From an uncultured Robiginitomaculum sp. (GTDB taxonomy: Bacteria; Pseudomonadota; Alphaproteobacteria; Caulobacterales; Maricaulaceae): a DNA stretch of 42,830 nt. A program made the position numbers and the translations under genes. The notes below the pieces were generated by a model, which searched no databases, was not told the origin of the DNA, and saw only the letters and a program-made list of their open reading frames with translations. The stretch lies in the NCBI GenBank assembly GCA_938015875.1, contig CALLXE010000037.1, positions 1-42,830 of the forward strand, read 5' to 3'. Positions 3,256-32,165 of this stretch are shown one piece after another; positions within the stretch are counted from its first letter, which is position 1, and the number at the start of each line of letters is the position of its first letter.

Positions 3256-5067
3256 CTAATCCGTCGTCTTTTTGCCGCGCCCGAGCAATTTATTGAAGAA
3301 CGAGTCAAACGGCGTCTCCACACCGAATTTGCGGGTGATGTAATATTGCTGAATGAAGGACAGGATATTGTTCCACACCCAGTAGACCAAAAGTCCGGCT
3401 GCAAATGGCGCAAGGATGAACATAAAGAAGAGCGGCATAAGCTGGAAGATTTTCCGCTGCATCGGATCACCGGCCGGCGCAGACAAAGTCTGCATCATTG
3501 CCATGGTCGCGCCATACAAAAGCGCGAGCGGGCCAATGGCGAAAAATGCCAAAAATCCGAACGGCACGCCATCCCACGGCAAGATGCCAAATCCGTTCAA
3601 AACAGACAGCGGATCTTTTTGTGACAAATCCTGAATCCATCCGACAAACGGCGCCTGGCGCATATCAATATTGATAAACAGGGATTTATAGAGCGCAAAG
3701 AAGATAAAGATTTGCGGGATCATCGGCAGACAGCCGCCGACCGGATTAACGCCCTCTTTTTTATACAGCGCCATCATTTCCTGCTGCATGCGGGCGCGGT
3801 CATCTTTGTAAAGCTCCTGCATTTTTTTAACCTTGGGCTGCACAGCTTTCATCTTGGCTTGGCTGGCATAGGCTTTGTTATTGAGCGGGAACAAAATCAA
3901 TTTCAAAATCAGCGTAATGATTAAAATGCCGACGCCAAAATTGCCGGTCAAATTACCGAAGAATGACAGCGACCATGACATGGGGCGCGTCAACGGGCCA
4001 AGGAAACCCCAATCAATCGCCATATCCATACGGGCAATATTCGTGTCCGGATTATCCATATAGGCATTGAGAATTTTGCTGCGTTTCGCGCCGGTATAGA
4101 AAAAGCCTTTGGACTCTATGGCAGAGTTCGGCGACAGCGTGACAGCGCCCAGTTCATAGCCGGCCTCATAAACATCGGCGCCATCCCTGTTGTTCATCTC
4201 AAACGTGGCAGTCATAGGCTTGCCTTGCGGCGCAATAGCGGCAGCCAGCCAGTATTTATCCGTCAGGCCAACCCAGCCGCTCTCGCCTTGGGCTTTGGAA
4301 ATTCCGGTTTTTCTGAGCTTTTTATACTTCATATCAACAAGCTTGTTGTCGACAATGGCAATCGGGCCTTCTTGGAGGATGAAGAAATTGGTCAGATTGT
4401 TCGGCAAGCCATGTTGCACGGATGCGCCCTGACGCACCACTGTCAGATCATTGCCGGATGTGTTGGTGACTTTATCATCCAGCGTGATGAGGTATTTGTC
4501 ATCGACGGTGACCGTGCGCTCGACGGTGAAACCATCGCCCTGAAACGCCAAAACAACAGGGCTGTCGACGCGCAGCGTATCGCCGCTGAGGACAGACCAA
4601 GACGCCATGCCGGGTGTTTCTCCGGAGCGCGCCCAACCGTCAAAAACATAGGCCGCGTGATTTGACCCTTCAGGTGAGAACAGGATGACGTTCTCATCGG
4701 TTATGCCGTCAATTTTGGCCGGAACGCCGGCGCGTCGCTTTGCTTTTTCGTCAAAGATATAAGCGTTATAGTTTTTCAACTCCAAATCATCGAGGCGAAA
4801 TCCGTCCAAAGACAAAGAGCCCTTCAGGGACGGCGTATCAATATTTAAGCGGCCGCCCGTTTGTATCGATTCGGACAATAAGTCTTTGCGGTCTTTGACC
4901 ACGACCGGCGCGGCTTCGGATTTGGTAATCTGCTGTTCATATTGCGCAGCAACTTGCTTTTCAGCGGCAATGCGATCCGAGGTCGGTTTCGAGTAAAGAA
5001 AGAAATATCCGAGCATAACAAGCGCCGACAGGGCAAAGGCCAGCATTAAATTACGTTGTTCGTTCAT
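3256..5067 (-). CDS. yidC: Membrane protein insertase YidC/OxaA
   Basis: YidC inserts and folds inner-membrane proteins, alone or with SecYEG. The 603-residue length fits the Gram-negative form. It has an N-terminal transmembrane segment (LMLAFALSALVMLGYFFLYS, about 8-27), a large periplasmic domain of beta structure (about 60-350), then the conserved insertase core. The core includes MSWSLSFFGNLTGNFGVGIL, a charged cytoplasmic hairpin (QAKMKAVQPKVKKMQELYKD), VNPVGGCLPMIPQIFIFFAL and VYWVWNNILSFIQQY. The C-terminal tail is short and basic. It lies 48 bp downstream of rnpA. The small yidD gene often found between rnpA and yidC is not present in that gap. Confidence 0.97.
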   Translation of the reverse strand: MNEQRNLMLAFALSALVMLGYFFLYSKPTSDRIAAEKQVAAQYEQQITKSEAAPVVVKDRKDLLSESIQTGGRLNIDTPSLKGSLSLDGFRLDDLELKNYNAYIFDEKAKRRAGVPAKIDGITDENVILFSPEGSNHAAYVFDGWARSGETPGMASWSVLSGDTLRVDSPVVLAFQGDGFTVERTVTVDDKYLITLDDKVTNTSGNDLTVVRQGASVQHGLPNNLTNFFILQEGPIAIVDNKLVDMKYKKLRKTGISKAQGESGWVGLTDKYWLAAAIAPQGKPMTATFEMNNRDGADVYEAGYELGAVTLSPNSAIESKGFFYTGAKRSKILNAYMDNPDTNIARMDMAIDWGFLGPLTRPMSWSLSFFGNLTGNFGVGILIITLILKLILFPLNNKAYASQAKMKAVQPKVKKMQELYKDDRARMQQEMMALYKKEGVNPVGGCLPMIPQIFIFFALYKSLFINIDMRQAPFVGWIQDLSQKDPLSVLNGFGILPWDGVPFGFLAFFAIGPLALLYGATMAMMQTLSAPAGDPMQRKIFQLMPLFFMFILAPFAAGLLVYWVWNNILSFIQQYYITRKFGVETPFDSFFNKLLGRGKKTTD

Positions 5068-28013: not shown

Positions 28014-29030
28014 CTAAAACCGGTAGCGGCCACGCAGGCTGACCGGAACGCTCCAGCGCTCGTCATATTGGTTAGCGCCGGGCAGGGCCGTGCTGTTCGG
28101 AATGGCTGCACCGTCAAGGCCGCCGGAATAACGAATACCGGTTTCAAGACCCAGCATAACATTGCGCGTGACCGGACGTTCGACCCCGATCAGGGCCGCA
28201 CCGGTCGGAACCCACCCGCCTTCGATGAAGTTGAAGTTGCGGCCAAGGCGCTCAGGTGCTGTGACAGCGCGCTGATCTTCGATGCCGATATCATCAATAT
28301 AAGCGGCGCCGAGGCGGCCTTCGACATATGGTTTGTAAGATGTGGAGGCAGGCATAGTTACATATTGACGAAGGCCCAGTTCTGCGCCGTAGCTTTCATG
28401 GTCTGTAAACGTGCCGCGAACCGGCGTCGCGCTGTTGCGCAATGTCACGCGTTCGCCTTCTGATTTTGCCCAAAAGGCTTGACCGGTCAGCATGCGGTTT
28501 CCGCGAAGTGAGCGGGCTGCGCCAAGTTCGGCGCGAATACCCGGTTTAAAGGCTTCGTCCATAGAAACATTGTTATAGCCTGCTCCGGCGGCGTCTTGGC
28601 CGCGAAAGAAACCGCCGCCCGTTGTAAAGTCAGCGCCGATGCTGCCATTGACTGTCCACGGGTTTTCACGCGGTCCGGCATAGTGACCTTTATGGCCGCC
28701 ATGACGGGTTCCTGAATGTTGCGGCGCAGGATAGCTGTGCGACGTGCCGTCATGGCCGGCAGAATACATTGTATTGCCGACAAGCGGACCATTGGGATCA
28801 AAATCCTGCGGATAAGTTTGCGCAATCGGATATTGATAAGCACCGCTGTCGTAAGCGCCGGCGGAATATTGACCGCTTTGGACTTGCGGATTGTAATGGC
28901 CACCGCTTACGTGTTGACCGGAATGGGAGCCGCCATAAGCGTTTCCGTTTGAATAACCGTCCGTTGTGTAGCCAAGCCAGCTGCATCCGGAAAGGGCGAC
29001 GGCGGCAACGCCGCAAATTAAAATGCGCAT
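28014..29030 (-). CDS. Lipoprotein with His/Gly-rich linker and barrel-like domain, paralogue 2 of 4
   Basis: The start at 29030 (MRILICGVAA) has GGAGCG upstream and aligns with the other copies; a longer in-frame ATG at 29126 is less likely. The product is 338 residues. The lipobox is ALSGC (Cys at 16), followed by SWLGYTTD. A linker of about 110 residues rich in Gly, His, Tyr, Ser and Gln follows. The C-terminal domain then repeats the family pattern: RAELGAARSL, GAELGLRQYVTMPAST, KPYVEGRLGAAYIDDI, GGWVPTGAALIGVE, MLGLETGIRYS and the final SLRGRYRF. It is closest to paralogue 1. The extra His content of the linker (HGGHKGH) might bind metal, which is speculation. Confidence 0.82.
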   Translation of the reverse strand: MRILICGVAAVALSGCSWLGYTTDGYSNGNAYGGSHSGQHVSGGHYNPQVQSGQYSAGAYDSGAYQYPIAQTYPQDFDPNGPLVGNTMYSAGHDGTSHSYPAPQHSGTRHGGHKGHYAGPRENPWTVNGSIGADFTTGGGFFRGQDAAGAGYNNVSMDEAFKPGIRAELGAARSLRGNRMLTGQAFWAKSEGERVTLRNSATPVRGTFTDHESYGAELGLRQYVTMPASTSYKPYVEGRLGAAYIDDIGIEDQRAVTAPERLGRNFNFIEGGWVPTGAALIGVERPVTRNVMLGLETGIRYSGGLDGAAIPNSTALPGANQYDERWSVPVSLRGRYRF

Positions 29031-29111
29031 GAAAACGCTCCGTTGTAATGTTCGGATATCGCACGGCGCGTTATCCATCGGAGGTTTGGTTGCAAGTCTC
29101 AGGCCGGCATA

Positions 29112-29150
29112 AAAAAACCCGACCACTCTTTCGAGCGCCGGGTCTTTTTT
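29112..29150 (-). terminator. Terminator hairpin after barrel paralogue 3
   Basis: On the minus strand AAAAAAGACCCG pairs with CGGGTTTTTTT across a loop of about 17 nt, with one G-T pair, and the T tract ends the stem. It sits 20 bp beyond the stop of the gene at 29169. Because A and T tracts flank both sides, it could work in either direction. Confidence 0.65.
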
Positions 29151-29168: not shown

Positions 29169-30533
29169 TTAGAAGGCAATCCGTCCGCGAACCTGTACCG
29201 GGACAGACCATGTGTCTTCAGACGTAATGTTTGTGCCTTTGTCATCCGTCCACCGCACGCCGGTTTCAACACCGAACGCTGCGTTCGGGCCGGCCGCGAT
29301 TTCTGCGCCGATCATACCTGCAGCTGTCGGTGACCATCCTTCGCGGATATACACTTGCTTTTCAGGGGACGTAACAACTGTGCCGCCCGTTGATGTTGTC
29401 GTCAGATCAACTTCATTATTGTGGACGAAACCGCCGGAGGCTGAAACATATGGACGGAAGCCGTAATTACCGCCGACATATTGGCGAACGCCGCCTTCGA
29501 CAGTCAGCTCGTTAAGATCGCTGAACTCATATTCGCCGGCTTCGGTAACGTCGTCACCGGTTGCGACCGTGCCCATATTATCGGTAATTGTACCGTTAAT
29601 GATTTTTTGGCCTTCATATTGAGCGTAGCTTGCGCCTGCGAACACTGTCGTATTGCGTGACACGTCATATTCCAGCGAAGAGCCGAGAACTGAGCCGCTG
29701 TCAAAAGCGTCAGCATATTCAATGGCGTTCAAAGCAGAGACGTCGCGGGTTGCGCTGGCCGGTTTGGCCGCTTCACCTTCGAATAACTCACCGGCTGCAT
29801 ATGTCGACACGCCCGCAAATCCTGCCAAACCCAAAGGCTGCGCTGCGCCGCCAACACGAAGTCGAGGCGCTTGGTAATAAGCCGGATAAGGACGCGGCAC
29901 ATAAATCGGCGCGCCTTGAATTTGACGGGCATTGCCGCCGACCACTTGGCCGCCTGTTGCATATTGAGCGTATTGACCGCCGGCAACGCCGCCGACCGCT
30001 GTGCCGTAGCCTGCGCCTGCGCCGAGGGTGGTCACTTGACCGCCATAACCGATATTACCTTGGCCGAAACCCGCAGCATTTGCACCGCTATAGCCTGCGC
30101 CCGGTCCGTAAGCACCGATACCCGGAGCCGACCCTGTCATGCCGTCAAAGCCTTGGCCATAGCCCGCTGCGCCGTATCCTGCGCCGCCCTGACTGAAGCC
30201 TGCTGCGCCATAACCGGTCGCGCCGTTAGCACCATAACCGGCGGCGCCATTTGCGCCGTAACCTGCCGCGCCATAGCCGCCTGCACCATTAGCGCCGGCG
30301 CCGTAGCCCCATCCGCCGCCTTGGCCTGCGCCATATCCGTTAGCGCCGTAACCGGCCGCTTGGCCATAAGCCCCGCCGTAACCGCCGCCGCAACCGGCAG
30401 CGCCTTGGTTCCAGGCTCCGCCATATTGTGAGTGACCGGTAGCGCATCCGTTTGCTGATGAGCCGGAGCCCATACCGAGCCAGGAGCAACCTGACAATAA
30501 TACTGCTGATAGTGTGCAAATTGCGATGCGCAT
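29169..30533 (-). CDS. Lipoprotein with long Gly/Ala/Tyr repeat linker and barrel-like domain, paralogue 3 of 4
   Basis: The 454-residue product starts at 30533 with a strong GGGAGG site 7 bp upstream. The lipobox is LLSGC (Cys at 16), followed by SWLGMGSG. Residues about 20-215 form a low-complexity linker dominated by Gly, Ala and Tyr, with GYGANG/GYGAAG units repeated many times. The C-terminal domain is the family barrel-like one: SSLEYDVSRNTTVFAGASY, LTVEGGVRQYVGG, FRPYVSASGGFVHNNEVD, EGWSPTAAGMIGAE, AFGVETGVRW, and VQVRGRIAF at the end. It is transcribed from a region with four phased TTAA tracts. The linker could span the periplasm or the cell surface; its role is unknown. Confidence 0.83.
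   Translation of the reverse strand: MRIAICTLSAVLLSGCSWLGMGSGSSANGCATGHSQYGGAWNQGAAGCGGGYGGAYGQAAGYGANGYGAGQGGGWGYGAGANGAGGYGAAGYGANGAAGYGANGATGYGAAGFSQGGAGYGAAGYGQGFDGMTGSAPGIGAYGPGAGYSGANAAGFGQGNIGYGGQVTTLGAGAGYGTAVGGVAGGQYAQYATGGQVVGGNARQIQGAPIYVPRPYPAYYQAPRLRVGGAAQPLGLAGFAGVSTYAAGELFEGEAAKPASATRDVSALNAIEYADAFDSGSVLGSSLEYDVSRNTTVFAGASYAQYEGQKIINGTITDNMGTVATGDDVTEAGEYEFSDLNELTVEGGVRQYVGGNYGFRPYVSASGGFVHNNEVDLTTTSTGGTVVTSPEKQVYIREGWSPTAAGMIGAEIAAGPNAAFGVETGVRWTDDKGTNITSEDTWSVPVQVRGRIAF
29890..30476 (-). repeat. Gly/Ala/Tyr hexapeptide-type coding repeat in barrel paralogue 3
   Basis: The encoded linker iterates GYGANG, GYGAAG and close variants. The most regular part lies at about 30135-30370, where the DNA shows degenerate 18-24-base units. 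The DNA copies differ at third positions, so the pattern is kept at protein level rather than being a fresh tandem duplication. Confidence 0.75.
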
Positions 30534-30634
30534 ATCTGCCTCCCTTTTTAAAAAAACTTTCGTCCTATGAAATGTGGTAAACGAATATGTTTAACAAAGC
30601 GTATTCAGGACATTAATTTTGTGTTTAGTTTCAG

Positions 30635-30682
30635 ATGGTTAAAGATTAACCAAGGTTTAATTTCGATTTAATCTTGTGTTAA
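30635..30682. promoter_or_regulatory. Four TTAA tracts at exact 11-bp spacing (overlapping CtrA-type boxes)
   Basis: TTAA occurs at 30646, 30657, 30668 and 30679, each 11 bp apart. Each neighbouring pair is therefore a perfect TTAA-N7-TTAA, the consensus for CtrA binding, giving three overlapping boxes. Just before them, ATGGTTAA at 30635-30642 makes the palindrome TGGTTAA-AGA-TTAACCA. The cluster is 102-150 bp upstream of the paralogue 3 start, in the only gap available for its promoter. CtrA binding is inference. Confidence 0.55.
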
Positions 30683-30691
30683 ATATTCAGG

Positions 30692-32050
30692 CTAAAATCC
30701 GATACTGCCGCGCAGTGTAAGCGGGATCGCAATATTGCCGTCAGTCTCACCGCCGGCTGTAATCGAGCGGCCGCCTTCATAGCGAATGCCGGTTTCAAAA
30801 GCCAAAGCTGCCTTCGGTGTGACTTGCCATTCCGCGCCGACCGTAATCGCGCCGGTCGGAACCCAGCCTTTTTCAAGCACTTCAACCGCAGCGGAGCTGC
30901 CTTCACGGCTATACTGAACATCAGCGGGGTCAGCCCAGAACTGCGCAAGCAAAAGCTGTTCGTTTTGCTGACTGACTTCAAGTTGGTTGTAATGCGCCGC
31001 GCCGGCAGAGGCCGAAATATACGGGTTTAATGGGCGCTCAAGGTGGTTGGTGAAAACGTCTTTGAAATAATAACGGCCACCCACTTCGAGGTTTGTGCGG
31101 CGCATGTCATTGACGGACGCGCTCGTTTTCGCGACGATAATGTCAGGAACCGCCGTATTTCCCAAAATAGGCGCGCCGTTCTCTATAAAGCTTCCCGGCG
31201 TAGCAGGATCTTCAATATAATTTGTTGTCGTCGTCAACTCATGTACGTCCGCTTCATAAGTCGCGCCACTGGTGTTTCTGCCGCGAGCCGCCGAATATGA
31301 TGCATTGGCAAACGCCGCAAACCGATCATTAAGTTGATATTCTGCGCCCGCGCCCAGAGTAAATGGCGCAGCATATAGATCAGAAATACTGATAGATGGA
31401 GACTGATTCTCCGCGCCGGGAACGTTATCAATGCGCGGCTCATAGACATTCAGAATCGTCTGACCGTCGGCCTCACTGCCCTCGCCTGTCGCTTCAACAT
31501 GCAATAAAGGATCATAAAGCTCAGGCAAATCACCGGAATTATAAGCATCGCCGCTGACGCTGGTTTCGAACCCGGTTGTGCCGGTCAGGCGGAAACGCGG
31601 ACGTGTCCAGCTTTTATGAAAGCCCTGATTGGCCGCAGCCTGCGCGCGGTTAATGTCACCGAGTGAGCGTCCGTAAGAGCCTGCGGCCGGTGCCTGATAT
31701 TGGCTTTGCGCTTGGGTTTGGCCGTAGCCGCCTGCGCTTTGACCATATGCGCCGCCATATTGACCGCCCGGAAGGGCGATTGTGACTTGCTCGGGAGAGC
31801 ATCCTTGCGGAACCGGCATAGAGACGGATGTAATTTCGCAGCGGCCGTAAGTTGGGGCCTGCGCGCCATATCCGCGCTGCTGTGGGGCGTATCCGCGAGG
31901 TTGCGGGCTGTGCTGCGCGCCTTGATAACGGCCGGCGGCCTGCGCGCCGCGATTATAATCGGCCCAGCTATCGCTCGAATTTTGTCCTATTCCGAGCCAT
32001 GAACACCCGGATAAAAGGACGGCTGAAGTGGCTAAAGCGGCAATGCGCAT
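30692..32050 (-). CDS. Lipoprotein with Gln/Gly/Tyr-rich linker and barrel-like domain, paralogue 4 of 4
   Basis: The 452-residue product has the lipobox LLSGC (Cys at 16), followed by SWLGIGQN. The linker (about 20-145) is rich in Gln, Gly, Tyr and Ala; it is interrupted by a small segment with two cysteines (YGRCEITSVSMPVPQGC), unique to this copy. The barrel-like domain is the most divergent of the four: LGAGAEYQLNDRFAAFANAS, LEVGGRYYFKD, LNPYISASAGAAHYNQLEV, KGWVPTGAITVGAEWQVTP, AFETGIRYEGG and a final LTLRGSIGF. It is the most upstream member of the array. Its start has GGGAG 9-13 bp upstream, and two copies of a TTATGKTTAA motif lie in the promoter region. Confidence 0.82.
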   Translation of the reverse strand: MRIAALATSAVLLSGCSWLGIGQNSSDSWADYNRGAQAAGRYQGAQHSPQPRGYAPQQRGYGAQAPTYGRCEITSVSMPVPQGCSPEQVTIALPGGQYGGAYGQSAGGYGQTQAQSQYQAPAAGSYGRSLGDINRAQAAANQGFHKSWTRPRFRLTGTTGFETSVSGDAYNSGDLPELYDPLLHVEATGEGSEADGQTILNVYEPRIDNVPGAENQSPSISISDLYAAPFTLGAGAEYQLNDRFAAFANASYSAARGRNTSGATYEADVHELTTTTNYIEDPATPGSFIENGAPILGNTAVPDIIVAKTSASVNDMRRTNLEVGGRYYFKDVFTNHLERPLNPYISASAGAAHYNQLEVSQQNEQLLLAQFWADPADVQYSREGSSAAVEVLEKGWVPTGAITVGAEWQVTPKAALAFETGIRYEGGRSITAGGETDGNIAIPLTLRGSIGF

Positions 32051-32073: not shown

Positions 32074-32111
32074 GTTATGGTTAACCGTGGGTTTGCCCTG
32101 TTATGTTTAAC
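32074..32111. promoter_or_regulatory. Direct repeat GTTATGGTTAAC / GTTATGTTTAAC upstream of paralogue 4
   Basis: Two 12-mers differing at one base lie at 32074-32085 and 32100-32111, 26 bp apart. On the minus strand, the strand of the gene, they read GTTAACCATAAC and GTTAAACATAAC; the first contains the CtrA half-site TTAACCAT exactly. They lie 24-61 bp before the start at 32050. TTATGGTTAA also occurs upstream of the DUF885 gene. Confidence 0.5.
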
Positions 32112-32165
32112 AAGTTGTGAAACAGGCGATATTTTGCGTTATTTTTTTTAGGCCGCGTCCGGTTT

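Follow-up and report, generated by a model that had tools for sequence, protein, structure and literature searches.

The region analysed here lies in a 42,830-nucleotide stretch of DNA, which as a whole is referred to as the window and comes from a genome of Robiginitomaculum (Caulobacterales), the genus of R. antarcticum. Within it is a 158-bp gap (30534-30691) that separates two genes of the minus strand, designated gene A and gene B. The start of gene B is lipoprotein-like, and the first half of its predicted structure is of low confidence. The second half (residues 231-454) is all-beta, mostly above pLDDT 78 in the predicted structure, and resembles the OmpA, OmpW and NspA barrels, with target-normalised TM values of 0.5-0.6. 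A Pfam search returned no match for gene B, and gene A gave a weak match to DUF3575, below the curated cut-off. No Rfam match was found within the window at the gathering threshold. The coordinates of the individual features are collected in Table 1.

Table 1. Features of the gene A-gene B locus, in window coordinates.
Feature	Position	Strand	Basis or remark
Four TTAA half-sites in 11-bp steps (30646, 30657, 30668, 30679)	30646-30682		Gap shuffles; spacing kept in G004
Proximal TTAA-N7-TTAA box	30646-30660	minus	Both TTAA invariant in the genus promoter alignment
Inverted TTAACCA pair, palindrome TGGTTAA-AGA-TTAACCA at 30636-30652	30635-30652		Sequence
Core element TTGTTAAACATA, 55 bp downstream of the array	30586-30597	minus	Genus alignment
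Gene B: lipoprotein-like, Gly-rich first half, beta-barrel second half	29169-30533	minus	Likely target of the array
Terminator-like hairpin between gene B and the next gene (28014-29126)	29117-29136	minus	Hairpin scan, weak
Gene A: paralogue-like lipoprotein barrel gene, upstream of the array, which its end adjoins	30692-32050	minus	ORF
Gene-A promoter element: TTGTTAAACATA (32113-32102) and TTAACCAT (32084-32077)	32077-32113	minus	Sequence, homologous promoters

The original prediction described four TTAA tracts at exact 11-bp spacing, three overlapping perfect TTAA-N7-TTAA boxes and an adjacent palindrome, and all three were recovered when the sequence was inspected and the pattern counted. 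Beyond the three overlapping matches the window has none; when its sequence was dinucleotide-shuffled 100 times, the mean was 0.75 matches, and three of the 100 shuffles reached three. The inverted TTAACCA pair of the palindrome is formed by a fifth TTAA, at 30639, together with the neighbouring TTAA of the array. This fifth copy lies 7 bp off the array and out of phase with it, and belongs to TTAACCAT, read on the minus strand from 30642 to 30635. In total, the gap holds eight TTAA (30548, 30591, 30613, 30639 and the four of the array) against 3.1 expected, and relative to the ATG of gene B these are found at -149, -138, -127 and -116 (the array), -109, -83, -61 and -18. Six of the eight, namely 30591, 30613 and the array, have one 11-bp register in common.

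The phased array of four TTAA is real and exceeds chance. Among 20,000 dinucleotide shuffles of the gap, not one had four TTAA in a row at 11 bp. At least three in a row at 11 bp were obtained in 0.095% of these shuffles, and four in a row at any one of the spacings 5 to 22 in 0.005%. When eight TTAA were instead placed randomly in the gap, the probability of a run of four was 0.0005 at 11 bp and 0.008 for any spacing from 5 to 22. Across 61 related genomes, three phased TTAA were counted at 18 places, spread over 12 of the genomes; four phased TTAA, seen as two overlapping triple places, occur in two genomes, the window genome and G004, in both cases at the gene-B promoter. The triple was also considered as a diagnostic pattern and was rejected as such, because its reversed control occurs in 16 of the 61 genomes, against 12 for the pattern itself.

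Homologous promoters were collected only where a lipoprotein start was recognised, which gave 40 for gene B and 32 for gene A, the window included. The core element downstream of the array has only two matches in the window genome, one in front of each gene, and its core TTAA[AGT][CT]AT is present in 37 of the 40 gene-B promoters. CATATT at the gene-B core element is a possible -10 region; no standard sigma-70 promoter was found between 30400 and 30800. The TTGTTAARCATA core was tried as a genome-wide CtrA or sigma motif and set aside, eight of its ten matches in six genus genomes falling in this locus and two elsewhere. Upstream of gene A, TTGTTAA-N20-22-TTAAC[CT] is found in all 32 homologous promoters and TTAACCAT in 27 of them, while TAAAC-N3-TTGTTAA is found in 30, the window and G004 being those without the TAAAC part. 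The gene-A TTAA pair looks like a -35 box plus TTAACCAT near a -10, and its layout is similar to that of the two CtrA sites of hemE, as these are described in passages of PMC11264516. Judged from the collected promoters, the TTAA architecture of gene A is a more widely conserved result than the gene-B array.

It had been proposed that the array could place the barrel genes under cell-cycle control. Gene A has its own element, and terminator-like hairpins come after gene B and after the next gene, thus preceding the other two; the array is therefore not to be credited with all four genes. The hairpin evidence is weak, because the scan yields 5 sites against 7.2 in shuffles, i.e. no excess. By its location in the promoter region, the array is placed to control gene B only.

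Relatives of gene B were found in 20 of the 61 genomes, 50 loci were obtained from named genomes, and the relatives with names are mostly from Robiginitomaculum, Hellea and uncultured Caulobacterales. The nearest relative is the gene B of G004, which is 70% identical. Its upstream TTAA lie at -151, -140, -129, -118 and -111, i.e. with the same 11-11-11-7 spacing, and a comparison of the two promoters revealed changes in 0 of 20 TTAA columns against 8 of 24 spacer columns (Fisher p 0.005). The 11-bp register of G004 holds inside the array, not as far as the core element. One TTAA-N7-TTAA box is common to the four genus promoters of the alignment, at a distance of 55-56 bp from the core element; R. 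antarcticum and G002 have a single box each, aligned to the proximal box of the array, and the alignment is without G001 and G003, neither of which yielded a gene-B promoter. Loss of the phasing in close relatives had been named as an argument against the original prediction; the phasing is kept in G004, but in two others only a single box is present. Runs at 11 bp among the 40 gene-B promoters comprise four TTAA in two (window and G004) and two TTAA in three, and the remaining 35 have no 11-bp TTAA pair. With a single box in four of four aligned genus promoters and a run of four in two of 40, it is the single box that is shared in the genus, and the distribution suggests that the full array either arose recently or has disappeared from the other lineages.

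Two other spacing patterns were seen upstream of gene B. A Hellea assembly (L100, about 4430-4480), one of the three promoters with a run of two, carries five clustered TTAA at 7, 11, 10 and 12 bp in the position that the array has in the window. In many gene-B promoters from outside the genus (e.g. L090, L103 and L106), TTAAGGTTTTGTT precedes the TTAARCAT core by exactly 33 bp, equal to three helical turns, and a TTAA pair 33 bp apart is found in 32 of the 40 gene-B promoters, the window being counted via its array.

Absence of a ctrA gene had been named as an argument against CtrA binding at this site. The window genome, in an assembly of 1.83 Mb that is 67.7% complete, encodes a CtrA equivalog (NF045991, 424.8 bits against a cut-off of 350), as well as ChpT, which is present in six of six genus genomes overall. 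The suggested count of TTAA-N7-TTAA over the genome gave no over-representation, with 30 places in 1.83 Mb against about 32 scaled from the window shuffles. This test is weak because many real CtrA sites are degenerate; equally, a single box means little, because the genome holds 30, about what shuffling predicts. The reversed control gave 49 places against 30, an unfair null since the reversed pattern reads AATT-N7-AATT. Outside the window lie 27 of the 30 boxes, 20 of these being intergenic as judged with a crude ORF picker. One box stands upstream of a cpaB gene, and the 29 proteins scanned near boxes include MscL, a thymidylate synthase and a HAD hydrolase, which are not classical CtrA targets. 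Upstream of ctrA itself, TTAA-N6-TTAAC is present and TTAACCA is absent. Elsewhere in this genome (L008 and L009, on contig C12 around 8.9-9.5 kb), boxes adjoin phage terminase and portal genes, perhaps part of a prophage or of a gene transfer agent that CtrA controls.

In an 800-kb portion of R. antarcticum, the 8-mers of 476 upstream regions were ranked with no preset motif, the regions of divergent genes being counted twice. GTTAACCA, ATTAACCA, TGGTTAAT and TTAACCAT all came within the eleven most enriched of the 8-mers seen at least six times, and TTAACCAT was found 8 times in the 476 regions against 1.24 expected. Over the 800 kb, 10 of its 18 copies are intergenic, compared to 21.6% of all TTAANNNN (p 0.0017, uncorrected). 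TTAACCA precedes ctrA, sciP, cpaB and a Tad gene in R. antarcticum, and these are classical CtrA targets. They are four of the 10 genes annotated among 35 with an upstream motif, these 10 having been chosen mainly because a forward TTAACCA lies close to their start. The annotation did not extend to five other forward-TTAACCA genes: gene A, an ORF of 51 aa and three genes whose motif lies at -118, -143 and -177. Some of the classical targets are also supported by passages of PMC11264516.

Other counts showed no such signal. Whole-genome occurrences of TTAACCAT did not exceed those of the reversed control (37 against 36 in the window genome, 41 against 54 in R. antarcticum), and the hexamer TTAACC was not enriched in intergenic DNA (68 of 324). 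In a 400-kb portion of R. antarcticum, 5 intergenic TTAA pairs were spaced at 11 bp, the mean for spacings 4-40 being 3.2, so that no clear peak was seen, and a TTAA 11 bp before TTAAC was seen 4 times in R. antarcticum, inside the range of 0-6 for other spacings. On contig C38 of G001 (1465-1482), three TTAACCAT lie inside 18 bases, on both strands.

The array is probably an upstream regulatory array in the gene-B promoter region, with the response regulator CtrA as the protein most likely to bind it. Could it instead be functionless, four TTAA having fallen into phase by chance in an AT-rich gap where TTAA is common, and two genomes having simply inherited them? The gap does contain eight TTAA in 158 bp, and for eight copies a run of four at any one of the spacings 5 to 22 has a probability of 0.008; many gaps were inspected before this one was picked, and the box has neither genome-wide enrichment nor a clear 11-bp peak. 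Chance does not, however, readily account for TTAA that are unchanged in 20 of 20 columns next to spacers changed in 8 of 24, for one box at the same distance to the core element in four genomes, or for a run of four that appears only at the gene-B promoter across 61 genomes, and we consider this explanation unlikely. The contrast between unchanged TTAA and changed AT-rich spacers speaks equally against a role in DNA shape, in which phased AT-rich tracts would act as an UP-element or an upstream bend without a sequence-specific regulator. Such a role would suit an AT-rich, helically phased stretch that precedes a conserved core element, but the unchanged letters are exactly TTAA, and TpA steps differ from classical bending A-tracts, so that this reading appears very improbable.

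A different DNA-binding protein might also use the array. MucR- and SciP-type regulators act on CtrA promoters, SciP is encoded in R. antarcticum, and six more full-length OmpR-type matches (100-181 bits) come from the window genome, so either a MucR-/SciP-type protein or another OmpR-type response regulator can be imagined at this site; the core elements of genes A and B, moreover, seem locus-specific, which a global regulator does not explain. TTAA and TTAACCA are nevertheless the letters of CtrA, and TTAACCA is found at ctrA, sciP, cpaB and Tad in the genus. Another occupant is accordingly rated as quite unlikely.

If CtrA is the protein that binds, it would be phosphorylated via CckA-ChpT and would load onto a single face of the helix, as one dimer or two arranged head to tail, in the manner of OmpR/PhoB-type regulators on 11-bp repeats, 55 bp upstream of the gene-B core element. 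The original prediction envisaged several cooperative CtrA dimers. CtrA stands as the best candidate, but the three overlapping boxes could not all be filled simultaneously, and because the array has four half-sites it should accommodate at most two non-overlapping dimers. A steep response would be expected, because four half-sites on the same face leave room for two adjacent dimers, or for a single dimer in any of three registers. How strongly gene B, with its outer-membrane lipoprotein barrel, is expressed would then depend steeply on CtrA~P, and hence on the cell-cycle stage. The effect could be activation, delay or repression, the sign not being readable from the sequence.

A more specific version, which we offer tentatively and hold to be doubtful as a whole, is that the array is a cooperative CtrA ladder grown in one-turn steps. 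The box shared in the genus would have been joined by two upstream half-sites at exactly 11 bp, and head-to-tail dimers on one face would provide a sharp cell-cycle switch for a surface barrel lipoprotein. If this is true, the number of half-sites would set the threshold. CtrA control of gene B, if real, would in any case mean that the CtrA cell-cycle circuit reaches an outer-membrane barrel family without assigned function, in a marine Caulobacterales branch that has been little studied. The array would then also be a compact natural operator for measuring how the number of half-sites and their helical phase affect the response to CtrA.

Hyphomonas neptunium belongs to the same bacterial order as the window genome. 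According to passages of PMC7200025, ChIP-seq in this species yielded the CtrA motif TTAA-N7-TTAAC, with 211 of 222 sites being intergenic. Binding was measured in that case, whereas the window array is known from sequence alone, and in the array the C after the second half-site is not constant. The consensus TTAA-N7-TTAA itself is given in a section of PMC9437464. The same excerpt describes the Brevundimonas phage vB_BsubS-Delta, in which intergenic TTAA are likewise dense: 30 TTAA, of which 12 are said to be canonical boxes, lie in a 1,312-bp phage gap between divergent genes, whereas the window has a 37-bp chromosomal array upstream of one gene. Searches of a literature library found no paper in it combining CtrA and Robiginitomaculum, and no strict 11-bp array of CtrA half-sites in those portions of the CtrA literature that they covered.

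OmpR/PhoB-type regulators can bind direct repeats of 11-bp period as cooperative dimers, an example being PhoP of M. tuberculosis, whose 7-bp motif and 4-bp spacer add up to the period seen in the window (PMC4832192, in part). Unlike the PhoP operators, the array does not fix the direction of each subunit by its sequence, because TTAA is self-complementary. A close parallel in layout is pilA of Caulobacter crescentus, where multiple CtrA sites also serve one promoter of a surface component, one at the -35 region and others upstream; these upstream sites raise the sensitivity to the CtrA level, and both induce and repress (passages of PMC11264516). The window array is a probable CtrA array, pilA-like in its layout. 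The pilA sites are separate and degenerate, at irregular distances (3, 31 and 78 bp) and with 6- or 7-bp spacers, whereas the window has four perfect overlapping TTAA in a single 11-bp register (PMC11264516, in part). Dense CtrA sites are thus already known in kind, and the arrangement in the window is an unusually regular example.
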